This document shows positions 1 to 36,362 of a DNA stretch of 38,753 nt, one piece after another; position 1 is the first letter of the stretch, and each line of letters opens with the position of its first letter. The stretch comes from Deltaproteobacteria bacterium. Lineage in GTDB: Bacteria; SAR324; NAC60-12. Below the pieces are notes generated by a model. The model worked only from the letters and a program-made list of their open reading frames with translations. It was not told where the DNA came from and did no database searches. The stretch covers positions 1 to 38,753 of the forward strand of contig JABGPG010000126.1 in NCBI GenBank assembly GCA_018645085.1, in the 5' to 3' direction. Position numbers and translations under genes: made by a program.

Positions 1-918
1 TTTTTTAGCTGCGGTAATTAAGGCGTAGTCTTCAGGTTGACGGTGAAGATCAAAATTGAAAATATTTTCCTGAATTTCTTTACAACGCTCCAAATCGCAT
101 TCTGCAAGAATCACCTCATCTCCCAGTGTTTTACATTCAGCAACAATTTCACCTGTCGGTGCAATGATACAGGTGCCTCCAATCAAATCACAGTCTTCTT
201 CTTTGCCGGCTTTTGCAACACCGACAATCCAGGTACCATTTTGATACGCCGCCGCTTGTAAAACCAGGTGGTTATGAAACTCCTGCAGATGATCATGCTC
301 CGGTGCCGGCGGATAATGTTTTGGTGTGTTATAACCCAGCACTACAAGCTCAACTCCCTGCAGTCCCATGACCCGAAAAGTCTCCGGCCACCGACGGTCA
401 TTACAAATACACATGCCGATTTTACCGCCAAATAGCGGATGAACTTGAAAACCTAAATTACCCTTTTCAAAATATCTTTTCTCCAGATGTTGAAAAGCGC
501 GCCAGGGTTCATGTTCAGTGTGTCCCGGTAAATGTATCTTGCGGTATTTCGCAGCAATTTCACCCTGATTATTAACAAGCACTGCTGTATTAAAATGCCG
601 GGTGACTCCGTCTTCCACAACAAGTTCCGCAAAACCGAAATTAAAGCCGATTTTTAGTTTGCGTGCTTCATCAAACAAAGGCTGAGTAGCCTTGTTAGGC
701 ATTTCTGTTTCGAAATATTTATCAATTTCGGACTGATCCTCAGAATACCAACGCGGGAAGAAAGTCGTTAACGCTAGTTCCGGAAAGACAACCAGCTCTG
801 CGCCTTGCGCTTTTGCGTTTTGCATCAGAGCTATCATACGTTCGACTGCTGAAGAACGGGATTCTGCTACAGCGATCGGGCCGAGTTGTGCGGCCGCTAC
901 TTTTAAGATTCTTGACAT
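1..918 (-). CDS. N-carbamoyl-D-amino acid hydrolase (D-carbamoylase), 3' end cut by window edge
   Basis: This gene is not in the ORF track because no stop lies in the window; I translated it from the ATG at 918. The enzyme hydrolyses N-carbamoyl-D-amino acids to the free amino acid, CO2 and ammonia in the cytoplasm. The 306 visible residues align by eye along their whole length with the Agrobacterium enzyme of about 304 residues. The nitrilase-superfamily triad falls at E47 (FPELALTTFFPRW), K127 (KYRKIHLPGH) and C172 (CICNDRRWPE), the same numbers as in that enzyme. The visible end (HRQPEDYALI) matches the family C-terminus, so only a few residues are missing. It starts 14 bp after the M20 hydrolase and is the last visible gene of the ssnA operon. 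I see no clear Shine-Dalgarno, so it may depend on coupling. Its substrate in this pathway is unknown; a ureido acid from purine ring opening is my inference. Confidence 0.93.
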   Translation of the reverse strand, partial: MSRILKVAAAQLGPIAVAESRSSAVERMIALMQNAKAQGAELVVFPELALTTFFPRWYSEDQSEIDKYFETEMPNKATQPLFDEARKLKIGFNFGFAELVVEDGVTRHFNTAVLVNNQGEIAAKYRKIHLPGHTEHEPWRAFQHLEKRYFEKGNLGFQVHPLFGGKIGMCICNDRRWPETFRVMGLQGVELVVLGYNTPKHYPPAPEHDHLQEFHNHLVLQAAAYQNGTWIVGVAKAGKEEDCDLIGGTCIIAPTGEIVAECKTLGDEVILAECDLERCKEIQENIFNFDLHRQPEDYALITAAKK

Positions 919-932
919 TAAACTGTTATTGA

Positions 933-2165
933 TTATGATGATTTCTGCAGCAAAATTTGCAGGAGCACATCGGCACCCGCCTGAAGGTGCTTGGGTTCAG
1001 TATATTCTGCTACGTTATGACTTATGCCGTTTCGGCTTGGAACAAAGATCATGGCAGTTGGACAATTTGGTGCAAACATTTGTGCATCATGACCTGCTCC
1101 GGACGGCATTGATTTTACCCGGAAACCAAGTGTTGATGCTGTCTCTGCAACCAATGAAACCATTTCTTTATCAAATGAAACAGGCTCAAATCTGGCGAGT
1201 GTGCGGCTTGAAAAAGTCACCCCTTCTGCTTTACAAAGCTGTTCAATAAATGAGCTCATTGCCTGTTCAGCTTCTTGTAATTTCTGTTCGTCTGTATTTC
1301 GCAAATCAATGGTAATCAATGCTTCTTTGGCGATCACATTGATCAATCCGGGATTCAGTTTTGTCACTCCGACAGTGCCGATTTGATTCGCACCCATTTC
1401 ATTGGCAAGACGACGTACCTCTACCGAAATAGCCGCTGCCACATATCCTGCATCATGTCTGAGCCGCATCGGTGTTGTCCCGGCATGGTTTGCAGTTCCG
1501 CTTATTTTGTATTCATTCCACGAAATACCCTGAACACCTTCAACTGCACCTATTTCATAATCCTCCAGCTCCAGAATTGGACCTTGCTCTACATGCAGTT
1601 CAACATAACTATCTGCACGAAAATCACCTGTTGAGGTCTCACCGGCATAACCTATTTTGTCGAGTTCATCTCCAACGCGTGCCCCATCAATGTCAAGCAC
1701 ATCCAACATGCTTTTAAGTTCAAACGCACCCTGATGTACTCCACTTCCCATCATGTCCGGAGCAAAACGGGAACCTTCTTCGTTGGTAAAAAAACCAACT
1801 CCAAGCGGTTTTCGTGTCATAATCTCTGCGTCATTCAGGGTTGCGATTACTTCCAGACCTGCAAGAACCCCAAGGTTACCGTCATAACGTCCACCGCTTG
1901 CTACCGTATCTATATGTGATCCAGTCATCACCGGTCTTCCGGATTCCTGTCCTGCACGGATACCGATAACGTTTCCAATTTGGTCAACTGTAACTTCCAG
2001 ACCGAGTTCATGCATCCATTTAACAACGAGGTCACGCCCTTGGCGGTCTTCATCAGTCAGTGCCATTCTGCAGACACCTCCTCCGGCAATTGCGCCGATT
2101 TCAGCCAGCTCTTCAATTCTTGCGGAAAGACGGTCTATATTTATACGAAGATTAGCTAATGTCAT
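933..2165 (-). CDS. M20-family N-carbamoyl-L-amino acid hydrolase / allantoate amidohydrolase type
   Basis: A metal-dependent hydrolase of 410 residues in the family that includes N-carbamoyl-L-amino acid hydrolase (HyuC), beta-ureidopropionase and allantoate amidohydrolase. It cleaves a ureido group to release an amino acid, CO2 and ammonia. The di-metal ligands are visible: H84 (GSHIDT), D95 (GGRYDGNLG), E129/E130 (TNEEGSRF), H191 (ELHVEQGPILE) and a late His in GAGHDAQMF. Length is normal for the family. The ATG start is preceded by a good GAGGT ribosome binding site. It lies 88 bp downstream of the xanthine dehydrogenase and 14 bp upstream of the D-carbamoylase. A small inverted repeat (TGACT/AGTCA) overlaps the stop of the upstream gene. 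The exact substrate cannot be told from sequence; the position next to purine genes makes a purine-derived ureido acid likely. Confidence 0.9.
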   Translation of the reverse strand: MTLANLRINIDRLSARIEELAEIGAIAGGGVCRMALTDEDRQGRDLVVKWMHELGLEVTVDQIGNVIGIRAGQESGRPVMTGSHIDTVASGGRYDGNLGVLAGLEVIATLNDAEIMTRKPLGVGFFTNEEGSRFAPDMMGSGVHQGAFELKSMLDVLDIDGARVGDELDKIGYAGETSTGDFRADSYVELHVEQGPILELEDYEIGAVEGVQGISWNEYKISGTANHAGTTPMRLRHDAGYVAAAISVEVRRLANEMGANQIGTVGVTKLNPGLINVIAKEALITIDLRNTDEQKLQEAEQAMSSFIEQLCKAEGVTFSSRTLARFEPVSFDKEMVSLVAETASTLGFRVKSMPSGAGHDAQMFAPNCPTAMIFVPSRNGISHNVAEYTEPKHLQAGADVLLQILLQKSS

Positions 2166-2253
2166 TAAAATACCTCTACTTTATTTATCTCAGGATGGAA
2201 TGCTTAAACAAGGAACACCCCCACTATTTAAAATGTTGTCTGACTTTTTTCAG

Positions 2254-4803
2254 TCATTTAATTTTTTTTAAAGGCAGCTCATATTGTCGTTCGCCGCTGA
2301 ACTGGCAAAAAGCGTTTGCAACTGCAGAAGCAGTTGGAACGAGGCCGATTTCACCTACACCTTTTGCTCCACAGGGCCCGAACTCATCCGGTTCTTCAAT
2401 ACCGATTACGACGATACGCGGTGTAGCAGCGGCTCGGATCATACCAAGTTTGCCGAGCTTTGTGTGTACAGGGCGGCCTTCTTCCATCTCAAATTTTTCA
2501 GAAAGCGCGTAACCAAGACCCATGTGAACTGAACCTTCGAGCTGACCTTCGAATAAAATTGGATTAACGATCCTTCCTGCGTCATGCGCTGCATAAACGG
2601 TATCCACTTTTCCTGAGTCATCCAGAGTTACAACCTGTGTTGCATAGCTGTAGGAATAATGAGTTTTCGGCTCATCTACATCGTCCTCTATCGCAGTGGT
2701 CCAGTTACAAACCCACTCGCCCAGATATTCACGGCCTACCAATTCTGCCAGTGAATGTTTTTCCAAATCTGCTTTTAATTTCTTACCTGCGTCCAAAACA
2801 CTGTTGCCAATGAGAGAGGTGCCGCGTGAAGCAGTTGTCATTCCACAGGGAGCGTCTTTGGAAGTATCGACTTTTACTTTTACAAAATCCGGTTTCACGC
2901 CGGTTGCTTCACATAAAAACTGAACTGCCATCGTAAAAACGCCCTGTCCCATTTCCGTCCAGCCGTGGTGGATCGTAATTTCAGTAGGTGATTCAATCAC
3001 AACTCTGACCTTGCTTTCATCCTGAACCCCGTTGCCGATTCCGGTGTTTTTCATCCCGCAGGCAATTCCGGCGTATTTGGCGTTTTTAAACTGCTCTTTG
3101 ACTGCCAACAATGTTTTTTGAATTCCGATTCCGGAAGTAATTTTTTGGCCGGTCGAGGTACGGTCTCCCGGTTGGAGAGCATTGTCATATCGTATTTGCC
3201 AGCGGTCAAATCCGCCCTGTAGACAAAGTTCGTCAATACAACTTTCGATCGCAAAATTAATTTGATTTACACCAAATCCACGCATGGCACCACATGGAAC
3301 GTTATTGGTGTAAACAGCACGGCTGCGGAGATTTACCACAGGAATCGAATATGCGCTGGTGGCATGTCCCGCGGCGCGTTCCAAAACTTTCATGCCGACT
3401 GACGCATAAGCACCGGTGTCGCCGATGATGTCCGCGTTAACAAAAGTCAGCTTGCCGTTTTTGTCACAACCGAGCGACATTTCCATGTTCATCGGATGCC
3501 GCTTGGGATGCATGCAGAGTGATTCCGGACGAGTCAGTGCGACTCTAACCGGCACTTGAAGAAGATGCGCAAACAGAGCTGCGTGACCCTGCACAGAGAT
3601 GTCCTCCTTACCGCCGAATCCTCCTCCGTTTGGCATTAAAATCACCACCACTTTTTCCAGCGGTAGCCCTAATATTTTACTGATGCTGTTCCGGTCTTCA
3701 TAGACTCCCTGACTCTGAGAATAAACCTCAACGCCTTCTGCGGAAGGTTTCGCCAGACAGCATTCGATTTCCAAAAACGCATGTTCGATGCGTTGTGTTT
3801 TGTAAGTGCCTTTTGTGACAAAAACACTTTCTTTTTCCGCCTGCTTGCTGTCACCTCGCTTAATCTCAAGGTTCGACAACAAATTTCCATTTTCGTGAAT
3901 TTGTGCACAGTTTGCGGAAAGTGCTTCAAACGGATCAGTAACAGGCGGCAGCACCTCATACTCCACCTTGATCAGCGAAACAGCTTCACGCGCTGTTTTC
4001 TCTGTATCAGCAACAACTCCAGCGATGACATCACCAATGTAACGTGTTGTTTCTCCACGCTTTACCATCAGTGGCCAATCCTGAACAATTAGCCCGGTGT
4101 AACGTTCTCCTGGAATATCGTCCGCAGTAAAAACACGTAGTACACCATCCAGTTTTTCTGCATCCGCAGAGTCAATTTTCAAAACTTTTGCTCTAGGATG
4201 TTCACTAAATTTTAAAGCACCATGCACCATGCCTGAAAATTTAAGATCAGCTACATACGGTGCTTCTCCGGTGGCAAGTCGAAGTGCGTCATATTTTGGC
4301 AGGCTTTCACCAACTTTACCGCTGCTTTGAGGTAGCTCGATTTTAGCATTATTACGTAAAGCTTGCGCTGCAGATAGGCATGATTTGGTCACTTTTTTAT
4401 AACCTGTACAGCGGCAGAGGTTACTGTTTAAGGCTTTGTTGACTTCGCTTTCTGTCACAAATCCTTGATTCAGCAGGGGCCAGACTTTCATGATAATTCC
4501 TGGTGTGCAGAATCCACACTGCAGCCCACCTTCGGTAGCAAAGGCATTGATCACGGTTTCTTTTTTGCTTGCATCCAGCCCTTCCATTGTGACTACTTCC
4601 TTTCCGGCAACACGTCTCATGGGGGAAATACAGGCTTTAAGAGGATTACCGTCCAAAAGAACAGTACAGCATCCACAAACTCCTTCAGGAGCACAGCCAT
4701 CCTTAGGCGAGATTATATTTTTAACATCACGTAAATATGTCATCAAAGACAATTCCGGATCTCCGTCGTAATCTATGGTACTACCGTTTAGTTTGAATTC
4801 CAT
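2254..4803 (-). CDS. Fused 2Fe-2S/molybdenum xanthine dehydrogenase, selenium-dependent type
   Basis: This 849-residue protein joins a 2Fe-2S subunit (about 1-160) to a molybdenum-cofactor subunit (about 170-849), with no FAD domain. The plant-type cluster cysteines are C37, C43 and C46 plus C58. The second cluster is marked by CGFCTPG and CRCTGY. In the molybdenum part I see GGGFGGKED, GAMRGFG, EMGQGVF and the catalytic-glutamate motif GVGEIG near residue 817. Length and fusion fit the family annotated as selenium-dependent xanthine dehydrogenase, which hydroxylates purines such as hypoxanthine and xanthine. With no FAD domain it needs a separate electron acceptor; YgfK or another Fe-S protein is a candidate. 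AAGGAG precedes the ATG. The gene is separated from ygfK only by the RAYT gene and a palindrome. Selenium dependence is a family inference; no selD or yqeB is in the window. Confidence 0.88.
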   Translation of the reverse strand: MEFKLNGSTIDYDGDPELSLMTYLRDVKNIISPKDGCAPEGVCGCCTVLLDGNPLKACISPMRRVAGKEVVTMEGLDASKKETVINAFATEGGLQCGFCTPGIIMKVWPLLNQGFVTESEVNKALNSNLCRCTGYKKVTKSCLSAAQALRNNAKIELPQSSGKVGESLPKYDALRLATGEAPYVADLKFSGMVHGALKFSEHPRAKVLKIDSADAEKLDGVLRVFTADDIPGERYTGLIVQDWPLMVKRGETTRYIGDVIAGVVADTEKTAREAVSLIKVEYEVLPPVTDPFEALSANCAQIHENGNLLSNLEIKRGDSKQAEKESVFVTKGTYKTQRIEHAFLEIECCLAKPSAEGVEVYSQSQGVYEDRNSISKILGLPLEKVVVILMPNGGGFGGKEDISVQGHAALFAHLLQVPVRVALTRPESLCMHPKRHPMNMEMSLGCDKNGKLTFVNADIIGDTGAYASVGMKVLERAAGHATSAYSIPVVNLRSRAVYTNNVPCGAMRGFGVNQINFAIESCIDELCLQGGFDRWQIRYDNALQPGDRTSTGQKITSGIGIQKTLLAVKEQFKNAKYAGIACGMKNTGIGNGVQDESKVRVVIESPTEITIHHGWTEMGQGVFTMAVQFLCEATGVKPDFVKVKVDTSKDAPCGMTTASRGTSLIGNSVLDAGKKLKADLEKHSLAELVGREYLGEWVCNWTTAIEDDVDEPKTHYSYSYATQVVTLDDSGKVDTVYAAHDAGRIVNPILFEGQLEGSVHMGLGYALSEKFEMEEGRPVHTKLGKLGMIRAAATPRIVVIGIEEPDEFGPCGAKGVGEIGLVPTASAVANAFCQFSGERQYELPLKKIK

Positions 4804-4854
4804 TCTTCTCCTTGTATTTTGTAAATTGCATGCAGCTTTATGTTACGGTCCGTT

Positions 4855-4882
4855 GTAGGGGCACGGCGCGCCGTGCCCCTAC
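4855..4882. repeat. REP-like perfect 28-bp palindrome at the 3' end of the RAYT gene
   Basis: Each arm is GTAGGGGCACGGCG followed directly by its exact reverse complement. The RAYT stop codon (TAG, minus strand, 4879-4881) is part of this palindrome. A diverged copy with four differences lies at 7545-7572. Short GC-rich palindromes beside a RAYT gene are the normal setting for REP elements, so I read this as the cognate REP. It could also act as a stem-loop between ygfK/RAYT and xdh on the transcript. Confidence 0.85.
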
Positions 4883-5418
4883 CGAAACAATTTGTCTAAT
4901 TTCCAGTGTGCTGGATTATTTATAATGTACTCACGAAAATGTTTCAATTCAGTTTCGTTACGAATGACATGTTCCCAATAATTTCGTTGCCATAATTTCC
5001 CGCCGGGTGTTTGTCTAACTTCATTAAAACGCTTTGTGACTGCAGATTTAAAGGATCGAATGATACTTGGAATCGATCCCGAAACAGGTTTTCCAAATTT
5101 CTCAATATTTTTATCACTTGAGATGGATTCTTTTTCAACGGAGCTCTCTTTTTCAATTTGTATAATTCCGTGAAAATGATTTGGCATTACTACCCATGCA
5201 TCGAGTTTCAAATAATCTCGCAAATCTAAAGTTTTTCTCCATTCTTCAGCAACTACTTTCCCTAGATTATTCAACTGTATTTTTGCATTCTTTATCGTCC
5301 CAAACAGGCATTTCTTTTGTTGAACGCAGATAGTAATAAAATATGCTCCTTCCTGTGAATAGTTATAACCCTTCAATCGAATAGAGTATCGATGATGAAT
5401 TTTAGGGTTATATTGCAT
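4879..5418 (-). CDS. REP-associated tyrosine transposase (RAYT, Y1/IS200-like)
   Basis: A single-domain Y1 HUH nuclease of about 179 residues, of the kind that binds and cleaves REP palindromes. The family start (MQYNP, then HHRYSIRLKGYNYSQEGAYF), the HUH motif (MPNHFHGII) and the C-terminal helix with the likely catalytic tyrosine (REYIINNPAHW) are all visible. The track starts 14 codons earlier at 5460, overlapping ygfK. I chose the ATG at 5418 because RAYT proteins usually begin here and because it lies just after the ygfK stop. The gene sits inside the purine operon in the same direction, and its stop codon is inside a REP-like palindrome. The frame is open with all motifs, so it is probably functional. 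RAYTs are usually single-copy and domesticated rather than autonomous transposons. Confidence 0.9.
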   Translation of the reverse strand: MQYNPKIHHRYSIRLKGYNYSQEGAYFITICVQQKKCLFGTIKNAKIQLNNLGKVVAEEWRKTLDLRDYLKLDAWVVMPNHFHGIIQIEKESSVEKESISSDKNIEKFGKPVSGSIPSIIRSFKSAVTKRFNEVRQTPGGKLWQRNYWEHVIRNETELKHFREYIINNPAHWKLDKLFR

Positions 5419-5428
5419 ATCAATTTCA

Positions 5429-7516
5429 TCACCCGGAAGTGTGGCGTGACGTGTTCTCATATGAGGTTCTCATCATCTGCATTATCTCATAATTCAAAAA
5501 ACTTACACGACTTTTTGCCTCACCGGAAATTGTGTTTGCAGGATCGTTTTTGGAAAATTGAATGTCAAAATCTGGTCCGGAATAATTAACAGTATTTCCA
5601 GTTTCAGAAACACGATATTCCTTGCCGTCAAAACGGGAAAAGACTGTAGATTCCTGAGCAGAAGTTTCCACACTTTCAATATAAAAACCGTCTCGGTGGC
5701 TGAATTCCTGAAAAGTTTCCAGACTACCGAAAAACCGAGGTTTGAGCAAAAACGGACCACCGTCTTCCGGGCAGAAAATATCACAGTTTCCGCATTCATT
5801 ACAAAAATCTGCAAAGTTCGCAATTTGATATTTTTTCTCTAATTTCAGAGAATTCTTGGCTTTTACTGACCAGCCAGATTTATTGTTTTCAAACTCCAAT
5901 ATTTCAGTTTCACCCTGAGGAATATTCAGTGCAAAATTAGCATCGTTGGGGCAAACCGGAATGCACTTATCGCAGGTGAGGCAGTCGAATAGTTCAAGTG
6001 TTGTTCCGACTTTCCGGGGCGGATTTGAGTTTTTTTCTAAAGTATAACGTGCCTGTGTTGTGACCTCGTCGACATATGTTTTTGTATTCAGCAATTTAAC
6101 TTCGGAAAGCCATTTTTCAAAAATTTCATTCGCCAACGGTTCTTCTTGCGCTCCGGCAACTTTCCGGAATTCCCCACCGTTTTCCAACGTTTTACGCAGA
6201 GCATCCACCGTCGCAGCTTCTGTTCCGGAAGCGTTTACGCCGCCGGAAGCTATATTTTCCAGGGCCTGCTCAGCGTTTCCGTATGCTTTGAGGATGTAAC
6301 TTTCGATGTCACTTACGCCGAGTTTGTCCATACGTGAGTTTAACTCTTTGTAATAAGCACTGCTTCTGCTGTAACCGCCAACTTTCAGCAGATCACTGCA
6401 AACCGTGATTGGAGTCAAACCTAAAGCAACTGCATCCGCGAAGTTTGTTTTGTCAATGCCTGCAGAAAATGAAATTGGAAATTGGTCGCCGAATTTTTCA
6501 CGGAACTGCTGCACCAAATGGATTCCTAAAACGTGCAGGGGAGTTCCGGAAAGGTACATAACTTTTTCACTTTGCGGAAAGAAGTCCCGATGATTTTCCA
6601 CAATCAGCGTGTTATTAAATTTTACTCCAAAACCCAAACCCAGCGTTTTTGCGGTTTCACCGAGACGTTCAACAAAACCCTGCGCCTGTTCCCAACTGGC
6701 GTCATTTTCAAATGCTTCATCCGGAACGTGAATTTCCGCATAACCCAGAATTTCGTTGAATAAGTGTCGTACCTTTTCTTTTCCTAAAAGAGTTGGATTA
6801 AGTTTGATAATGCAGTTCAAATCGTGTTCACGGAAAAGATAATCAATTATTTTTTCAATTTCTTCCGGAGGACATCCGTGAAATGTACTTAGAGTCAGAG
6901 TGTCAGAAAGTTTCGTCTGGAAATCCAGCTTTCGGAATTCACGGTACTGCTCCGGAATTTGTTGTCGGTAATGTTCCACGATTGCGGACGCATCCTGCAT
7001 ACCTTCAATAAACTGCCGTACTTTGTCGGATTGAATTCCCGCTAAATCATAACCGACACTCATGTCATACAGCACGTCGCCGAAATTATCAGCCAGTTCC
7101 AGCTTTCCGCTGGCCTGCAGAATTTCAATCAGCATCGCACCTTTTACATATTCATGCAGTGACTGCTCAATCCGTAATTCCTGTGACCATTCAACATTGT
7201 AACCCACTGTCTGCATGTCAATACAGGGTCGTGGAATTTCCAGTTCATCTAGAATTTGTACGGTCTTCAATTCCATAATTCTGCATCCACCCAACCATGA
7301 AAGCAAAATATTTTGTGCCATTTGGGTTTGTGGCCCGGAAGCAGGTCCGAGAGCTGAAGAACTTTTTTTGCCGTGAAAATTTACGGAATAATCTTTTCCG
7401 GAAATACCGCAGAAAAATTTTTTTGCAGGAAAATCAAAAATGGATTGCTCTGTTTCTAACTCGTCAAACATTCGGTTTATGAGAGAACCAAATGGATGCG
7501 GAATTAATTCAGCCAT
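5429..7516 (-). CDS. ygfK: YgfK-type flavin/Fe-S oxidoreductase, short form
   Basis: This protein matches E. coli YgfK (annotated as putative selenate reductase subunit) at the N-terminus (FDELETEQSIF, LKTVQILDELEIPRPCID, STFHGCPPEEIE, KLNPTLLG). It also matches at the C-terminus, with two ferredoxin-type 4Fe-4S motifs, CLTCDKCIPVCP near residue 510 and CNECGNCDIFCP near 570. The N-terminal half looks like a dihydropyrimidine/dihydroorotate dehydrogenase-type barrel. It has 695 residues, about 340 fewer than E. coli YgfK, because the central GltD-like FAD/NAD(P) domain is absent. The track start at 7561 is a GTG inside a palindrome; the ATG at 7516 (MAELIPHPFG) matches the family start. YgfK is required for anaerobic uric acid use in gut bacteria. 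The C-terminus (ENTSRHTSG) next to the RAYT gene may not be original. Confidence 0.87.
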   Translation of the reverse strand: MAELIPHPFGSLINRMFDELETEQSIFDFPAKKFFCGISGKDYSVNFHGKKSSSALGPASGPQTQMAQNILLSWLGGCRIMELKTVQILDELEIPRPCIDMQTVGYNVEWSQELRIEQSLHEYVKGAMLIEILQASGKLELADNFGDVLYDMSVGYDLAGIQSDKVRQFIEGMQDASAIVEHYRQQIPEQYREFRKLDFQTKLSDTLTLSTFHGCPPEEIEKIIDYLFREHDLNCIIKLNPTLLGKEKVRHLFNEILGYAEIHVPDEAFENDASWEQAQGFVERLGETAKTLGLGFGVKFNNTLIVENHRDFFPQSEKVMYLSGTPLHVLGIHLVQQFREKFGDQFPISFSAGIDKTNFADAVALGLTPITVCSDLLKVGGYSRSSAYYKELNSRMDKLGVSDIESYILKAYGNAEQALENIASGGVNASGTEAATVDALRKTLENGGEFRKVAGAQEEPLANEIFEKWLSEVKLLNTKTYVDEVTTQARYTLEKNSNPPRKVGTTLELFDCLTCDKCIPVCPNDANFALNIPQGETEILEFENNKSGWSVKAKNSLKLEKKYQIANFADFCNECGNCDIFCPEDGGPFLLKPRFFGSLETFQEFSHRDGFYIESVETSAQESTVFSRFDGKEYRVSETGNTVNYSGPDFDIQFSKNDPANTISGEAKSRVSFLNYEIMQMMRTSYENTSRHTSG

Positions 7517-7544
7517 AAAAAGTTTAAAGTTAAACGGTTTCAGA

Positions 7545-7572
7545 GTAGAGGCACGGCACACCGTGCCCGTAC
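7545..7572. repeat. REP-like imperfect 28-bp palindrome between ssnA and ygfK
   Basis: This has the same length and layout as the palindrome at 4855-4882, with four substitutions (GTAGAGGCACGGCA then CACCGTGCCCGTAC). It lies in the 81-bp gap between ssnA and ygfK. It is flanked by two 9-bp direct repeats TCAGAGTAG (7540-7548 and 7579-7587), the first overlapping its left arm. Together the two copies bracket ygfK plus the RAYT gene. It could also form a hairpin in the ssnA-ygfK message. Confidence 0.75.
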
Positions 7573-7597
7573 AAAGTCTCAGAGTAGGAGAATGGTT

Positions 7598-8935
7598 CTA
7601 GTTGAAATTACTCCAAAGTTTTTTCGCCTGTTCGACAGCATTTGCTTTTATTTCCTGTTCGGAAACATCCAGCAGTTGATAATCACGAATCCGGAATTCC
7701 CCTCTTGTCATCACATCGCAGGGTAAGCCGCTCAAGCCAAAAAAAATGTTGCCAAAAATGGTGGATTCGCTAATCGGCGTTCTTGGCAAATAATCAAAAA
7801 TCGCTAAATCCGCTTGGTATTTCGGTAAGATGTAACCTAATTTTCTGCTGCTACCGTGACTTCCGGAGAAGAGTTTAGAGGCAATTTCGGCATTATTTTT
7901 AAATAACAACTGCATGTAGTCAACACTATCTTCTCCGCCTTCAAGGTGTGAACTGCGAATGAGCATGCCTTCTTTGCCTTCACGCAGCATGTTGCTCTGC
8001 ATGCCGTCCGTTCCAAGCCCTGATTTTAATTTATTTAAATTTTGATTTGGAGTCATGCCAACCCTGTTATTCGCATTTGAAGATGGATTGTGCACAAATT
8101 GAGAGCCATGTTTCTGTATCAATTCAAGATCGGAATCTTTGATATGCAGACCGTGAATGATGAGACCGTTTTCATTGAGCAGATCAAATTCCTCTAACCT
8201 TTCCAAAACCGAGTTGTAGCCTTTGTTCAGGGCATCGGCTTCATCTGCTTTGTCTTCAGAGACATGTGCATGAATTCCCCATGAATCGAGCTTGCCTGCA
8301 GCGTCCCTGATTTTTCTTAAAGAAGCATCTGAGAGAGTAAAAGATGCATGCAAACCAAGCATTGGATGAACATACTGAGTTGCGGAAAACTTGCTGATTG
8401 CAGCTATATTTTCCTGCAGACTTGCTTCAAATATTTCTTGACCGTTACGGTCAGAAATTTCAAATGCGGTACTGATATTTAAACCGAGCTTTTCCGAAGT
8501 TTCCGCCAGTAGAGAGAGTGAACCTTCAATGTAGGAAGGACTGCAGTGGTGGTCAATGATGGTTGTCGTTCCGGCTTTCAGTGAGTCTACTAATCCTGCT
8601 TCAAAACAAGCTTGCGTAGAATCGCGATCAAGAGCGAGGTCCATTTCCCACCAAACCTGTTCCAGGATTTCATTGAAGTTACGCGGATTATTTTTCGGAA
8701 GAGGCATCCCCACTGCAAGTGCAGAATACAAATGATGATGAGCATTGATCATGCCGGGCAGAGCGGTTTTTCCACAGAGATCATGGACAACATCAAACTC
8801 TCCGGAAGGTTCGCTGGAACTTACACTTTCAATCGTGTCTCCGGCAATTGCCACATAGGCATTTTCAAGCAATGCAGGATCAGCACATGGATTGATCACA
8901 TGTAAATTTTTCAACAGGGTTTTTTTCACGATCAT
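7598..8935 (-). CDS. ssnA: SsnA-type amidohydrolase
   Basis: A 445-residue metal-dependent amidohydrolase of the TIM-barrel superfamily, aligning along its length with E. coli SsnA (442 residues). Metal-site motifs are visible: AHHHLYS near residue 66, LHASFTLS, HAHVSED, FVHNPSSNANN and LGTDG. The motif DHHCSPSYIEGSLS is typical of SsnA (E. coli has DHHASPAYIGGSLS). SsnA takes part in anaerobic uric acid breakdown in gut bacteria, where it is thought to hydrolyse a ring of a purine intermediate; the exact reaction is not visible from sequence. It is the first gene of the minus-strand operon, behind a good sigma70-like promoter at 8970-8998. Spacing to the ygfK start is 81 bp and contains a REP-like palindrome. 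The ribosome binding site is weak (AATGAG). Confidence 0.9.
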   Translation of the reverse strand: MIVKKTLLKNLHVINPCADPALLENAYVAIAGDTIESVSSSEPSGEFDVVHDLCGKTALPGMINAHHHLYSALAVGMPLPKNNPRNFNEILEQVWWEMDLALDRDSTQACFEAGLVDSLKAGTTTIIDHHCSPSYIEGSLSLLAETSEKLGLNISTAFEISDRNGQEIFEASLQENIAAISKFSATQYVHPMLGLHASFTLSDASLRKIRDAAGKLDSWGIHAHVSEDKADEADALNKGYNSVLERLEEFDLLNENGLIIHGLHIKDSDLELIQKHGSQFVHNPSSNANNRVGMTPNQNLNKLKSGLGTDGMQSNMLREGKEGMLIRSSHLEGGEDSVDYMQLLFKNNAEIASKLFSGSHGSSRKLGYILPKYQADLAIFDYLPRTPISESTIFGNIFFGLSGLPCDVMTRGEFRIRDYQLLDVSEQEIKANAVEQAKKLWSNFN

Positions 8936-30788: not shown

Positions 30789-32525
30789 CTAGTTTTTAAG
30801 TTCTTCTAGAAAAGCAAGAATTTTGTCACGCTCAACCAGTCCAACGAGCAGCAGTAGGTCGCCTGCTTTTACACGCTGCACTGCCAGTTTCACAGCTTCA
30901 AGGCAGCTTTCTGTGGAACCGATATTTTCTTCCGTAAATCCCAAGAGACGCAATTCATCAAGCACGATTTTAGAAATTTCACCGGACTTTCTCCCACGTA
31001 AATAATCCTTCATTTGAGGGACTAAGAAAAAAACCGGTTGAATTTCAGCAATTACACGTGTCATCTCCCGGATTTCCTGATCACTGTGACTTCCAACATG
31101 ACCGGCTACAACGAGTCTTCGATTTGCCGGAAGCAGAGCAAGTGTTTCACAAACCGCGCTGAGTCCATGCGCGTTATGCGCGAAATCAATCAAAAGCTGA
31201 AAGCTCTGCTCAACGTCAGAGTCTTGAGAACGGTTTGCTGGAGGCAGAGGAAGTGTCAGATAATTGCCCCTGCCGGGATTATCGTCAATGTCACCCTTAA
31301 ATTCCTTGAGTGCTTTCACAATTATTTCATCTGCGAACCCCAGGTTTTTTGCCAGGGCAATGACACCCAGAGAATTGGCAACATTGTATCTGGCAGCACC
31401 GTTAAGAGTGAATGGTATTTCATTCACATTCAGCAAAATATTTACTGAATTTCCCTGTGCATAAAAAATCTTTCCCTGATCAGCATAACAAACAGCACCG
31501 CCCTTTTTCCGGTGATTAAGCAAAATCGGAGAATTCGCATCAAGACTGAACCAGCACAGGGGATGTTTTAATTTTCTCGAATATTCAACCAGTCCGGAAT
31601 CATCAGCATTGAGCACCAATGTACCACCGGAAACCTCCAGTGGACGGAGAATCGTGAACTTGACATCAATGAGATCGGCAAGACTCCGTACACCATATTC
31701 ACCCAGATGTTCTTCTGCGACATTGGTGATTATTCCCGCCTGAGCCTCAGTCACACCAAGTCCTCTGCGCATCATTCCTCCGCGTGCGGATTCCAGCACG
31801 CCGAACTCAACGCGCTGATCCCGCAGGATCTCACGTGCTCCTCCAGGACCGGAATAGTCTCCAACATCGAGGATTTCATCGCCAACTTTAATCCAGTCTG
31901 TAGAGGTCAGTCCAGAAGTATTTCCAGCAGCTTTGACGATGGAAGCGAGTAGACGTCCTACAGTAGATTTGCCGTTGGTTCCGGTGATGAGTGCAAGCGG
32001 TATGTTGCAGAGAGAGTTCCAGTCAACTTCATCGGCGGCAGGTAATTTATCGGCGGGCCAACTTTTTGATCCAATTCCAAGACCGAGAGTTACGGTTTCT
32101 TCATCAGCCAACAGTTGTATACCGTGTGAGTTTGCGGCAGCACTTAGTTTAAGCAGTTCAGGATTACTTTCCTGCTCAATACTTGCTTTGAGTTTTGAAA
32201 CTGTTTTTTCGAAATTTTCAGGGCTTGCTCCAATAAGCCGTGCGACAGTGCTGTTCCATGCTGCTTCATTGAGTTCAGTTGCAGCATAAACTGCATCCAT
32301 TGAAGAGCAAAAAGCCAAACTTGCACCTGCAGAACTGGTTCTAACAGTCAATGGAGTTTCCCCCCAGCCAGTCGCTGCCAACAGTTTTTGAACTTCTTCC
32401 TGCCAGCACTGTACGATTTCATCTACAGGAACACCTTCAACAGCAACATCCAGAACTGTTCCTGGTGAATGGAAATACAGATTTGGCCCGGTTAAGTGAC
32501 GGCTGCTTTCGAGTGTTAATTTCAT
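30789..32525 (-). CDS. CphA-like Mur ligase without the ATP-grasp domain
   Basis: A 578-residue protein related to cyanophycin synthetase. It has a CphA-like N-terminal motif (GPNLYFHSPGTVLDV; CphA has GPNLYAHFP) and a C-terminal Mur-ligase unit. That unit has a P-loop ITGTNGKST near residue 181, LESARGGMMRRGLG, ITNVAEEHLGEYG, the ADD loop and IDFAHNAHG. The ATP-grasp domain of CphA is missing; only about 140 residues of unclear fold replace it. Mur ligases join an amino acid or peptide to a carboxylate with ATP, and in CphA this half adds arginine. The track start is a TTG; the ATG at 32525 matches the CphA-like start. It begins 32 bp after cphA and is probably cotranscribed. Confidence 0.85.
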   Translation of the reverse strand: MKLTLESSRHLTGPNLYFHSPGTVLDVAVEGVPVDEIVQCWQEEVQKLLAATGWGETPLTVRTSSAGASLAFCSSMDAVYAATELNEAAWNSTVARLIGASPENFEKTVSKLKASIEQESNPELLKLSAAANSHGIQLLADEETVTLGLGIGSKSWPADKLPAADEVDWNSLCNIPLALITGTNGKSTVGRLLASIVKAAGNTSGLTSTDWIKVGDEILDVGDYSGPGGAREILRDQRVEFGVLESARGGMMRRGLGVTEAQAGIITNVAEEHLGEYGVRSLADLIDVKFTILRPLEVSGGTLVLNADDSGLVEYSRKLKHPLCWFSLDANSPILLNHRKKGGAVCYADQGKIFYAQGNSVNILLNVNEIPFTLNGAARYNVANSLGVIALAKNLGFADEIIVKALKEFKGDIDDNPGRGNYLTLPLPPANRSQDSDVEQSFQLLIDFAHNAHGLSAVCETLALLPANRRLVVAGHVGSHSDQEIREMTRVIAEIQPVFFLVPQMKDYLRGRKSGEISKIVLDELRLLGFTEENIGSTESCLEAVKLAVQRVKAGDLLLLVGLVERDKILAFLEELKN

Positions 32526-32557
32526 CAAGGATCCAGGCAATATGTGATGATTTTTTC

Positions 32558-35377
32558 TCAGTCCGCTTCTTCTTCATTTACTGGCATCTGATCAATCCGC
32601 ACTCCGCGTTCATCCCGGATAAATCTTTGTCCCGCGCCCAAAGTAAAAGGTTCGACAAAGGATTCAGCTGAATCCTCAACAATCGGCGGAGTTGTTTTTG
32701 CGGACGACAGGAGTTCTTCATCCTGATTAAAGTTGATGATTTGTTTCCAGCAACGTGTCACGTTGTCACCAAAGATCATCAGTAAATCTCCAGGTTCCGC
32801 CATTGAGAGACCGTGTTGAATCGATTCAACTTCGTCAGCAATTACTTCGATGTTCTCTTCAGCGACTCCGTTTTCCAGCAGGATTTTACGCAGCATTTGT
32901 GGGATTTCATCGTAGCCGCGTTTCCTTCGATTATCATCTGCTTTACAGATAAAATGATCAAAAACTCCTGAGACTATCTTTGCTACCTCGACAACATCCT
33001 CATCCCTTCTGTCTCCAGGCATGGAAATCACACAGATGTTTTTTCCATGAGTTTCCAAACGTGAAACGAGATGACACATTCCCTTAAAAGCAGCAGCATT
33101 ATGTGCATAATCCAGAATAACTTTGAAGGGATATTCATCAAAAATATTCATGCGCCCCGGTGCCTGGAAGAATGTAGTATTAAAGGTGCGCAGCCCATGA
33201 CGAATGTCATCCAGCGGCTTCCCCATGCTGTAAGCGAGTGCTGCGGCGAACATTGCGTTTTGTACGTTGTGAACCGCTTTTCCTTCCAGAGTAGCAGGAA
33301 TCAAGTGTGTCCAGAGCAGAGGTATATGCGAGCCCTTGTCGTACATGGTGATCATGTCACCATTGAGACCTTTTTCCAGCACAACTGCTCTGCCTTCTGC
33401 GCGGATATGTTCACGTACCAGAGGATGATTGTCTGCGAGTGTGATGTAACAGATATTTTCTGCTTTTGTGTGATTTGCCATTTCCAGACAAAGGTTATCG
33501 TCTGCGTTGAGCACAGCGGTATCAGTGGCAATTTCAATGAGAATACGCTTAATACGTGCCAGTTGCTCCACAGTATCTATTCCTCGAAGTCCAAGATGAT
33601 CACCTGAAACATTGAGGCAGGCGGCAACATCACAATTGCGAAAGCCAATTCCTGTACGTAGCATGCCGCCGCGCGCGACTTCCATTACAGCCACATCCAC
33701 TGAAGGATCACGGAGCACCATTTGCGCGGAAACAGGCCCGGTCATGTCACCTTTTACAGTCAGGTGTCCGTCGATATAAACTCCGTCTGTTGAGGTCATA
33801 CCGACAATATGTCCACTGGTTTTCAGGATATGAGAAAGCATCCGTGAAGTTGTTGTCTTCCCGTTCGTTCCGGTAATTCCGGCAATTGGAATTTGACTTG
33901 GAGTACCGGGAGGAAAAAGCATATCCATCACCGAGGCCGCAACATCACGCGGCTTGCCTTCACTCGGAGCAACGTGCATCCGGAATCCCGGTGCAGCATT
34001 CACCTCAACAATTGCCCCACCGATATCCTTGTAGGATTGAGTGATGTCATCTGTCAGAAAATCAACTCCGCCTACATCCAGTCCGATAGACTTAATGGCC
34101 CGCACCGCCATTTCACGATTATCAGGGTGAACCACATCAGTCATGTCAATCGCGGTTCCTCCCATCGAAAGATTTCCTGCTGCACAAAGATAAAAAATTT
34201 CATCTTTGGCCAACACAGTTTCATGGGTTTTATCTGCTTCACTTAACAGACGCTCGGCCTGTTCGTCAAATTTGAGGCGGGTTAGTACTTTTTCATGGCC
34301 AATTCCACGGCGGGGATCACTGTTTACTATTTCTACAAGTTCCTCAATTGTATTTTTACCGTCACCCACTACATGTCCCGGAACACGTTTGGAAACCGCT
34401 ACCAGTTCACCATTAACCACCAGCATCCGATGGTCGAGACCCGTCACGTAATTTTCAACTATAGTTGCTTTGTTGGTACTTTGAGATTGAGCCTCATTAA
34501 ACGCTACTACTACCTGTTCATCACTAGTGAGATTGACCGAAACTCCTCGTCCGTGGTTTCCGTCTAATGGTTTGAGAACCACCGGGAAGCCGATTTTATG
34601 CGCCTGCTGGAGTGCTTCTTCTTCATTATAGGCAATCCGCTGAGTAGTTGTAGGCAGTCCAAGATCATAGAGAATAGTGTGAGTTTCCTCTTTGTCACCG
34701 GCAATGCCGACCGCAATTTGCCTTGTTTCACTGGTGATCGTTGCCTGAATTCTGCGTTGATATTTTCCGTGACCAAACTGAACCAGACTGTAGCGGTTGA
34801 GCCGCAGGTAAGGAATATCACGTTCTTTTGCCGCATTGACCAAGGAGCCTGTGCTGGGACCGAATTCATGACGTTGCGAAAAACTGATGAAAGCGTCACG
34901 TTCCTCTTCAAAATTAAAATCCGCAGAAGGCACTGTTTCGATTTGCTTGCGGAGTTCTTCCGGCAGAAGATTCAGCAGTAGAGTCAAAGCCAGTTCACCA
35001 GCTTTAAGACCGACATCGCGCTGCATGTACTGGAACACCATGTTGTACTCAGCGTGTGTTCCAGTGGAACGTGTACGTCCAAAAGTCACATCGGAACCTG
35101 CAATGCATTGCAGTTCAATGGCAACGTGCTCCATGATGTGCCCCATCCAGGTGCCTTCGTCTTCACGCATCCTGCGGATGAAACCTCCGGATTTACGGTA
35201 TGAGCAACCGTGTTCTTCAAGTCCGGGCAGAGTCTCGACGAGTTGATCAATAAATTGCTGACCAATTTTTGCGGAGGGCCACTCTTCAAGTATGCCTAAA
35301 TCCAACACGTGCCGGATTACCGGAAAATGCGCATACAGATTAGGGCCTTGATAAACATTGGTGGAGATGATTTTCAT
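32558..35377 (-). CDS. cphA: Cyanophycin synthetase
   Basis: A 939-residue CphA that builds the storage polymer multi-L-arginyl-poly-L-aspartate with ATP. Order: N-terminal domain (about 1-160), ATP-grasp domain adding aspartate (about 210-470, VVLKPLDGNHGRGVSVNL and EVNAAPGFRMH), and Mur-ligase domain adding arginine (P-loop GITGTNGKTTTSRML near 500, EVARGGMLRTGIG, LDYAHNAAAF). It is about 65 residues longer than the 873-residue Synechocystis enzyme through an acidic C-terminal tail that includes FIRDERGVRIDQ. GAGGT precedes the ATG. It follows cphB (166-bp gap) and precedes the Mur-ligase paralogue, so synthesis and breakdown genes lie together. Confidence 0.96.
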   Translation of the reverse strand: MKIISTNVYQGPNLYAHFPVIRHVLDLGILEEWPSAKIGQQFIDQLVETLPGLEEHGCSYRKSGGFIRRMREDEGTWMGHIMEHVAIELQCIAGSDVTFGRTRSTGTHAEYNMVFQYMQRDVGLKAGELALTLLLNLLPEELRKQIETVPSADFNFEEERDAFISFSQRHEFGPSTGSLVNAAKERDIPYLRLNRYSLVQFGHGKYQRRIQATITSETRQIAVGIAGDKEETHTILYDLGLPTTTQRIAYNEEEALQQAHKIGFPVVLKPLDGNHGRGVSVNLTSDEQVVVAFNEAQSQSTNKATIVENYVTGLDHRMLVVNGELVAVSKRVPGHVVGDGKNTIEELVEIVNSDPRRGIGHEKVLTRLKFDEQAERLLSEADKTHETVLAKDEIFYLCAAGNLSMGGTAIDMTDVVHPDNREMAVRAIKSIGLDVGGVDFLTDDITQSYKDIGGAIVEVNAAPGFRMHVAPSEGKPRDVAASVMDMLFPPGTPSQIPIAGITGTNGKTTTSRMLSHILKTSGHIVGMTSTDGVYIDGHLTVKGDMTGPVSAQMVLRDPSVDVAVMEVARGGMLRTGIGFRNCDVAACLNVSGDHLGLRGIDTVEQLARIKRILIEIATDTAVLNADDNLCLEMANHTKAENICYITLADNHPLVREHIRAEGRAVVLEKGLNGDMITMYDKGSHIPLLWTHLIPATLEGKAVHNVQNAMFAAALAYSMGKPLDDIRHGLRTFNTTFFQAPGRMNIFDEYPFKVILDYAHNAAAFKGMCHLVSRLETHGKNICVISMPGDRRDEDVVEVAKIVSGVFDHFICKADDNRRKRGYDEIPQMLRKILLENGVAEENIEVIADEVESIQHGLSMAEPGDLLMIFGDNVTRCWKQIINFNQDEELLSSAKTTPPIVEDSAESFVEPFTLGAGQRFIRDERGVRIDQMPVNEEEAD

Positions 35378-35543
35378 GAAACCTCATTGAGCTAAGAAGA
35401 AGAGTGACAGAAAAGATGATCCAGGAAAAAGTCGAAAAGCACAAAAAAAATAACAGCACAGAATCTTAATAAGATAGAGGAGGATATTTATTTTTCTTCT
35501 CCATTTTATCTATGCATCGTTGAGGGTTTTGAGTCAGTCTGCC

Positions 35544-36362
35544 TCAGTCCAGAAAAACCTGTCTTGTGTTAATATCGTATTTTGCACCAGCGCTTAAAAG
35601 ATGTAATCGTAAATTTGTCAAATTGATGGGTGTACCCCTGCTTTTAGAACCCATTGAAGAATGAGATAATTCGCTGGGATCTACTACAGTAATTGAACCT
35701 GTACCTATCACCTCAAGCATTCCATCCGGATCAATAAAAGCGGCGGTGTTTTCGTCAATGCCTATTCCGGAAACAAACGGATTGTAAGCCACCGCGGACA
35801 GCAGACGTCCTAAACGGTCACGTTGTCGGAAATGCTGATCCACCACTATCCGGTTTGTTAATCCAAGCCCGGGAGCAAAAGTAACACCTCCTTCGCGGGG
35901 AGTAGGGCTGTTTTTCCCACCGGCTATCATGTGTTCCGGAACAAAAGCTGCGCCTGCGGAGGTTCCGGCAAAATGGACTCCATCCGCGTTTCTACGGCGT
36001 ATCATCTGTGCTACGGAAGTACCTCCCATGATAGTAGAAAGACGCAACTGATTCCCTCCTGTAATAAAAATACCATTCGCTTCTTTTAACTCACGCAGAT
36101 AATCCTCACGTTCGCTGTCCGCACGTTCTTCGATCGGCAGCCCAACACAGTGATCAACTCCAATATCGCGGAAGATATCAATGTAGTTCTGCCCTGTTTC
36201 CTTGAGTTTGGATGCTGTAGGAATGATGGCCAGTCGGGCGTTTTTGCCTCCGCAGAGTTCAGCGAATTTTTGTAAGATTATGGGTTTTTTTAGTTTTTCC
36301 TCCGCACCGCCGATCGGCACGATATATCCACGTTGAAGGCCTTCCGTACCTTGAATTGTCAC
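35544..36362 (-). CDS. cphB: Cyanophycinase
   Basis: A 272-residue serine exopeptidase that releases beta-Asp-Arg dipeptides from cyanophycin. The nucleophile is S135 in FAGTSAGAAF. GYIVPIGGAEEK, IFITGGNQLRLS and VDQHFRQRDRLGRL are family segments. No signal peptide is seen, so it acts inside the cell on stored polymer. The start is a GTG at 36362, supported by AAAAGGAT upstream at proper spacing. The gene is first of the cphB-cphA-Mur ligase set, with a 343-bp upstream region that should hold its promoter. Confidence 0.96.
   Translation of the reverse strand: MTIQGTEGLQRGYIVPIGGAEEKLKKPIILQKFAELCGGKNARLAIIPTASKLKETGQNYIDIFRDIGVDHCVGLPIEERADSEREDYLRELKEANGIFITGGNQLRLSTIMGGTSVAQMIRRRNADGVHFAGTSAGAAFVPEHMIAGGKNSPTPREGGVTFAPGLGLTNRIVVDQHFRQRDRLGRLLSAVAYNPFVSGIGIDENTAAFIDPDGMLEVIGTGSITVVDPSELSHSSMGSKSRGTPINLTNLRLHLLSAGAKYDINTRQVFLD

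Follow-up and report, generated by a model that had tools for sequence, protein, structure and literature searches.

A carbamoylase-containing gene cluster in a SAR324 bacterium as a probable variant of the reductive uric-acid pathway

A stretch of 38,753 nucleotides from a Deltaproteobacteria bacterium of the SAR324 lineage (contig JABGPG010000126.1 of assembly GCA_018645085.1; hereafter the window) carries, on its minus strand and 3' of lpxK, homologues of ssnA and ygfK, a gene for a xanthine dehydrogenase (XDH)-family reductase, and genes for an M20-family carbamoylase and a D-carbamoylase. We consider it probable, judging from gene content and homology, that this cluster represents a SAR324 form of the reductive uric-acid pathway that relies on hydrolysis, and not on YgeW, carbamate kinase and YgeY, to remove both ureido groups of 2,3-diureidopropionate (DUPA). 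The reductive pathway itself was elucidated in 2025, in gut and other anaerobes. XdhD reduces uric acid to 2,8-dioxopurine (yanthine), YgfK and SsnA reduce this compound and open it to ureidomethyl-hydantoin, HyuA forms DUPA, YgeW (or UacY) and YgeY strip the ureido groups, and YgeX yields pyruvate (PMC12507026). The order of ureido removal and its stereochemistry are still open in the field, with an R configuration having been proposed (PMC12990295).

The strongest evidence that the two carbamoylases act on a purine-derived ureido product, as is most likely the case, is their in-place exchange with YgeW and YgeY in sister genomes. This supports the proposal of a preliminary description of the window, made without database searches, that a variant purine/uric-acid cluster is present whose carbamoylases cleave the product of purine ring opening. 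Among SAR324 relatives whose flanks are complete, the slot between xdh and phyH holds carbamate kinase, YgeW and a YgeY-like gene (G001, G003, G010, G016), the M20 and D-carbamoylase genes (G004, G009), or an intermediate arrangement of carbamate kinase, M20 and D-carbamoylase (G005, G013). For example, the order is ssnA-ygfK-xdh-carbamate kinase-YgeW-YgeY in both G001 and G008, with phyH next in G001 and other genes beyond the same trio in G008. The order ssnA-ygfK-xdh-M20-D-carbamoylase is found in G004, where phyH is again next, and in the window, where one gene has been added. The YgeW proteins of the sister genomes are unambiguous (675 bits; cut-off 453).

Whole-genome searches across the genus found the window-type M20 gene without YgeW in seven genomes (G002, G004, G005, G007, G012, G013 and the window's own genome, G000) and YgeW without this M20 gene in five (G001, G003, G008, G010, G016). 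Both occur together only in the metagenome-assembled genomes (MAGs) G009 and G011, each of which has a YgeW-type and a carbamoylase-type contig (loci L108 and L236, and L113 and L237, respectively). Because each contig carries its own phyH, these two MAGs appear to hold two versions of one locus binned together, which could reflect mixed strains or a true duplication. When they are left out, there is zero overlap in 15 genomes (hypergeometric chance 0.019). In G020, a genome from a different genus, both modules are present in divergently oriented operons, YgeX-YgeY-YgeW-carbamate kinase and M20-D-carbamoylase. In a within-genus tree the two cassette states are interleaved, which fits interchangeable modules; support is moderate (73-100), so no number of exchanges is claimed. 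Overall, the gene arrangement is far beyond chance, since the order repeats in several SAR324 genomes and its parts occur together in other phyla.

Profile searches recovered ssnA, ygfK, the XDH gene and both carbamoylase genes, all intact and on one strand, where the preliminary description had placed them. Its gene identifications stand, although it overlooked a REP-associated tyrosine transposase (RAYT) gene between ygfK and xdh. This gene is absent at that place from relatives, including the closest one (YgfK 96% identical), in which the ygfK-xdh gap is about 40 bases, and we therefore regard it as a recent insertion outside the pathway. As also described earlier, ygeW, ygeX and ygeY were missing from the surroundings of the cluster; a search of the 88%-complete own genome likewise gave neither YgeW nor a strong YgeX, whereas YgeY was not searched genome-wide. 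With the M20 and D-carbamoylase genes at the site of YgeW and YgeY, the cluster is a variant and not a standard member of the pathway.

SsnA of the reductive pathway is represented at this locus and genus-wide. The window protein falls under the cut-offs of its best models, NF005540 (444 bits) and TIGR03314 (455 bits), yet this is the best family by far. It is 33% identical to E. coli SsnA, and the metal-ligand motifs HxH, HH, HxH, H and D align and are kept. The dearomatising reductase, which is YgfK or UacX in characterised systems, is represented by a short YgfK. Its match to TIGR03315 covers profile positions 5-403 of 1012 and remains under the cut-off of 835 bits because the protein is a short form, lacking in alignment the ~430-residue flavin adenine dinucleotide (FAD)/NAD(P)H domain of E. 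coli YgfK. Its AlphaFold2 model (pLDDT 81) is closest in fold to dihydroorotate dehydrogenase and to the flavin mononucleotide (FMN) domain of dihydropyrimidine dehydrogenase; these relatives came from a fold search, a PDB profile search having given no sequence match. The XDH carries the molybdenum cofactor motifs GGFGGK, AMRGFG and AKGVGE, and has no FAD subunit.

The window nitrilase is, by every residue checked, a D-carbamoylase. Glu47, Lys127, Cys172, Arg175, Arg176, His129, His144 and Glu146 occur at positions identical to those of the Agrobacterium enzyme. We take the Glu47-Lys127-Cys172 triad, Arg175/Arg176 and the further checked positions to have catalytic or carboxylate-binding roles in this family. 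A 90%-identical orthologue from G004 aligns with Agrobacterium D-carbamoylase (1fo6) at 417 bits. For the M20 enzyme, PDB relatives include N-carbamoyl-L-amino-acid hydrolase and beta-alanine synthase, and the presumed metal ligands and carboxylate-binding Arg/Asn are conserved relative to these structures. The labels 'D' and 'L' given in the preliminary description are thus sound as family names, although a division of labour by position (2-ureido versus 3-ureido) is likelier than one by stereochemistry. An R (D) configuration has been proposed for the ureido intermediates (PMC12990295), and the identity of the D-carbamoylase agrees with it.

Gene content, gene order, same-site replacement, family and residues are observed directly, and the reactions, the sequence in which the ureido groups leave and the source of electrons are proposed from homology and genomic position. 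The FAD-less XDH would reduce uric acid to yanthine, which short YgfK may then reduce, a separate donor such as ferredoxin or a PreT-like partner supplying the electrons. SsnA would open the pyrimidine ring of dihydro-yanthine to give ureidomethyl-hydantoin, and an unlinked D-hydantoinase on another contig (C121) could convert this to DUPA. The D-carbamoylase would stand in for YgeW or C. difficile UacY in taking off the 2-ureido group, and the M20 enzyme for YgeY in taking off the 3-ureido group, leaving 2,3-diaminopropionate. This product would be converted to pyruvate and ammonia, probably by a threonine-synthase-like pyridoxal phosphate protein (TSL) instead of YgeX. Such a scheme would trade carbamoyl-phosphate/ATP recovery through YgeW and carbamate kinase for irreversible hydrolysis.

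Since YgfK lacks its FAD domain and the XDH its FAD subunit, the probable electron source is ferredoxin or a separate flavoprotein; a source other than NAD(P)H has likewise been proposed for C. difficile (PMC12507026). The PreT protein encoded on C121 matches, at 205 bits, exactly the part of the YgfK model that short YgfK misses, and naming it as a candidate electron partner is a guess only. The XDH had earlier been called selenium-type. However, the selenium maturation marker yqeB (TIGR03309) was found in none of 31 family genomes and was found in an E. coli control, so that selenium dependence is not supported. A gene for SelD, which had been suggested as a further check, scores over its cut-off in 27 of the 31 genomes, cluster-free ones included; the own genome, which is incomplete, gave no match. 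A second XDH, with an FAD subunit and a fused Fe-S/Mo subunit, is encoded near dnaE and the TSL gene (locus L217; G000:C242, 5681-9280), and is possibly a xanthine-oxidising supplier of uric acid.

The hydantoinase that had been expected just past the left edge is not there in relatives with complete flanks, which show phyH, a biotin-carboxylase-type gene and amtB/glnK, and never a hydantoinase. In four SAR324 loci (L108, L044, L110, L112) amtB and glnK lie a few genes past the uric-acid locus, hinting at a nitrogen-acquisition neighbourhood. The D-hydantoinase of the own genome (589 bits) lies on C121 beside PreA, PreT and a ureidopropionase-like nitrilase, and may be shared with pyrimidine degradation given this pyrimidine cluster. 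The best amidohydrolase match of the own genome, on C151, was rejected as the hydantoinase because it is an S-adenosylhomocysteine/deoxyadenosine-deaminase-like enzyme. A purine transporter, which the preliminary description had proposed to look for past the left edge, is present elsewhere in the genome as a XanQ-like permease (C246; 46% identical to E. coli XanQ).

In place of YgeX, relatives probably use TSL, as suggested by gene order: YgeW-YgeY-TSL-PLP488 in G028 versus YgeW-YgeY-YgeX-PLP488 in G020. PLP488 is a CysK-like protein of ~490 residues, far under known cysteine-synthase cut-offs, that stands beside the clusters in L221, L102, L154 and many other loci; its model (pLDDT 93) is nearest in fold to CysK and beta-cyanoalanine synthase. 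TSL and PLP488 are paired in most genomes of the genus and recur in clusters of other phyla. In the own genome TSL is encoded at C242:138-1325, with the end of the contig falling at the expected start of PLP488. YgeX-like proteins of G004, G007 and G015 were rejected as the pathway enzyme, their neighbourhood being an unrelated one of a polyamine-type ABC transporter and a peptidase.

To follow the cluster outside SAR324, a genome collection was scanned with a short-YgfK alignment, yielding 251 relatives of which 80 were kept, and neighbourhoods were mapped by tblastn; many of the 80 loci lie on contigs that end early. Short-YgfK relatives occur in Myxococcota, Planctomycetota, Acidobacteriota, Elusimicrobiota and others, with YgfK accompanied by a recurrent cluster of the order CNH-M20-SsnA-XDH-PLP488-TSL. 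M20 and nitrilase genes are both present at 26/80 loci, YgeW and YgeY at 11/80, and both pairs at 2/80. The M20 and nitrilase pair stands beside short YgfK, SsnA and XDH in each of the four named phyla. Relative to the window protein, M20 identity is either 57-63%, as next to YgfK at several loci from myxobacteria, acidobacteria and planctomycetes, or about 44%. One locus (L150) has the order CNH-M20-YgeX-SsnA-XDH, in which YgeX scores 427 bits for diaminopropionate ammonia-lyase (cut-off 276). The presence of YgeX within this cluster suggests that the CNH/M20 pair produces diaminopropionate.

Several observations weigh against our interpretation. The nitrilase of the other phyla belongs to a different clade, about 22-27% identical to the window D-carbamoylase, and the two carbamoylase pairs may therefore divide the work differently. 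Hydantoinase is unlinked to the SAR324 cluster and lies near short YgfK in just 2/80 loci, and a strong YgeX is missing from the own-genome search. By its score the own TSL looks like an ordinary threonine synthase (TIGR00260, 166 bits; cut-off 167). The mutual exclusion of YgeW and M20 is based on a small count and on incomplete MAGs. The XDH has no counterpart of the Glu606 insertion, to which the yanthine specificity of E. coli XdhD is credited. Finally, a pathway described from anaerobes sits here in an oxygen-respiring lineage (PMC9031357), an unexpected setting for reductive chemistry, and the own genome has cytochrome oxidase subunit I.

One alternative, which we judge unlikely, concerns how the two carbamoylases share their substrate. 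If ureidomethyl-hydantoin and DUPA partly racemise, the D-type and M20/L-type enzymes could strip the same 2-ureido group from opposite enantiomers, with the 3-ureido group removed by another enzyme or by beta-elimination, for which PLP488 acting on albizziin could be a candidate. This would agree with the contrasting family labels (D-carbamoylase versus hydantoinase/L-carbamoylase type), and with a PLP488 that folds like enzymes of beta-substituted alanines and recurs beside the cluster. However, no third carbamoylase is linked to the locus, the genes exchanged are YgeW and YgeY, which remove two different ureido groups, and the M20 family also includes beta-alanine synthases that cleave 3-ureido groups.

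The last two unfavourable points above, together with an SsnA that falls under its model cut-offs, could instead mean that uric acid is not the true substrate, the cluster degrading a different N-heterocycle or the XDH running oxidatively in oxic water. We regard this as quite unlikely. YgfK, SsnA and XDH form the diagnostic core of the characterised pathway (PMC12507026), and sister species complete it with YgeW, carbamate kinase and YgeY-like genes. C. sporogenes XdhAC, named for its fused A and C subunits and thus fused like the window XDH, makes yanthine (PMC12990295). Uricase was found in none of the 31 family genomes, which would be expected of genomes that do not use the oxidative route. 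It is very improbable that the carbamoylases serve hydantoin or pyrimidine salvage and lie behind the purine genes by accident: both families are textbook enzymes of hydantoin utilisation and the genome has a D-hydantoinase, but in relatives with complete flanks neither a hydantoinase nor a hydantoin racemase lies next to the pair, the C121 pyrimidine cluster is already equipped with a nitrilase-type ureidopropionase, PreA and PreT of its own, the pair stands in place of YgeW/YgeY, and M20 and nitrilase pairs recur at SsnA/XDH in distant phyla.

The proposed uric-acid pathway with a hydrolytic finish can be compared with known systems. Like the E. coli cluster (ygeW-ygeX-ygeY-hyuA-yqeA ... ygfK-ssnA-ygfM-xdhD; PMC12507026), the window encodes SsnA, YgfK and an XDH-family reductase on a single strand, and in sister SAR324 genomes these are joined by YgeW, carbamate kinase and a YgeY-like hydrolase. 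Unlike that cluster, its YgfK lacks the FAD/NAD(P)H domain, its TIGR03311-type XDH lacks a YgfM FAD subunit, M20 and D-carbamoylase stand for YgeW/YqeA/YgeY, the hydantoinase is unlinked, and no YgeX or YqeB was found. The UacX/UacY variant of C. difficile (PMC12507026) is similar in its FAD-less reductase and FAD-less XDH, in a donor that is likely not NAD(P)H, and in removing the 2-ureido group by hydrolysis rather than phosphorolysis, as we infer for SAR324. In contrast, UacX is a PydA homologue and UacY a D-aminoacylase, whereas in the window YgfK itself has lost its FAD domain and a nitrilase-superfamily D-carbamoylase would act with an M20 carbamoylase in the role of YgeY. The similarity to Agrobacterium N-carbamoyl-D-amino acid amidohydrolase (1fo6/1erz) is full-length, with identical catalytic positions, but the window gene lies next to ssnA/ygfK/xdh with no hydantoinase beside it. 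Hydantoin utilisation operons likewise contain both carbamoylase families; here, however, no hydantoinase, racemase or hydantoin transporter is linked, and phyH comes next in relatives with complete flanks.

We found nothing in the literature on uric-acid use by SAR324, and the SAR324 phylum paper does not mention purine, urate or xanthine. The literature found on the reductive pathway assigns the ureido steps to YgeW or UacY, with YgeY, and mentions neither carbamoylases nor marine bacteria. Reductive recycling of uric-acid nitrogen is probably not confined to the gut, with deep-branching ocean SAR324 carrying a variant. On a wider claim our judgement is evenly divided, namely that environmental bacteria, often ones that respire oxygen, widely possess an FAD-less, ferredoxin-type reductive uric-acid pathway that ends in purely hydrolytic carbamoylase steps and uses a lyase other than YgeX. 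The groups concerned would be SAR324, Myxococcota, Planctomycetota, Acidobacteriota and Elusimicrobiota, and the ATP-recovering module (YgeW/carbamate kinase) and the hydrolytic one would replace each other in place between close relatives. If so, uric-acid nitrogen would be recycled reductively by oxygen-respiring members of a lineage abundant in the ocean and of several phyla from soil or sediment. The in-place exchange offers a clean test of which ureido group leaves first, and the irreversible carbamoylases could provide alternatives for uric-acid-lowering probiotics.

Table 1. Features of the uric-acid locus in the window.
Feature	Positions	Strand	Basis
ssnA homologue, amidohydrolase	7598..8935	-	NF005540 377 bits, TIGR03314 354 bits
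short ygfK	5429..7516	-	ATG at 7516; FMN-type reductase domain and two 4Fe-4S motifs; TIGR03315 428 bits
RAYT	4879..5460	-	NF047646 83 bits (cut-off 80)
XDH-family reductase, fused 2Fe-2S and Mo domains	2254..4803	-	TIGR03311 919 bits (cut-off 830)
M20-family carbamoylase (hydantoinase/carbamoylase family amidase)	933..2165	-	TIGR01879 413 bits (cut-off 204), NF006769 476 bits (cut-off 452)
D-carbamoylase (N-carbamoyl-D-amino acid amidohydrolase family)	1..918	-	nitrilase superfamily; residue match to Agrobacterium enzyme
REP-like element adjoining RAYT	4856..4881		perfect palindrome
second REP-like element, between ygfK and ssnA	7550..7567		palindrome

The window is an entire contig (C88) of a 3.1 Mb, 294-contig MAG, so its left edge is a contig end; the D-carbamoylase gene (Table 1) runs off it after 306 of ~305-313 residues. 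Elsewhere on the minus strand of the same contig as the uric-acid genes, a cyanophycin cluster for nitrogen storage (30789-36362) encodes a cyanophycinase, a full cyanophycin synthetase (1121 bits) and a further, truncated ligase that resembles cyanophycin synthetase. At the right contig edge (37368-38753, minus strand) lies a gene for a nitrite/sulfite-reductase-like protein with sub-cut-off scores to NirA.

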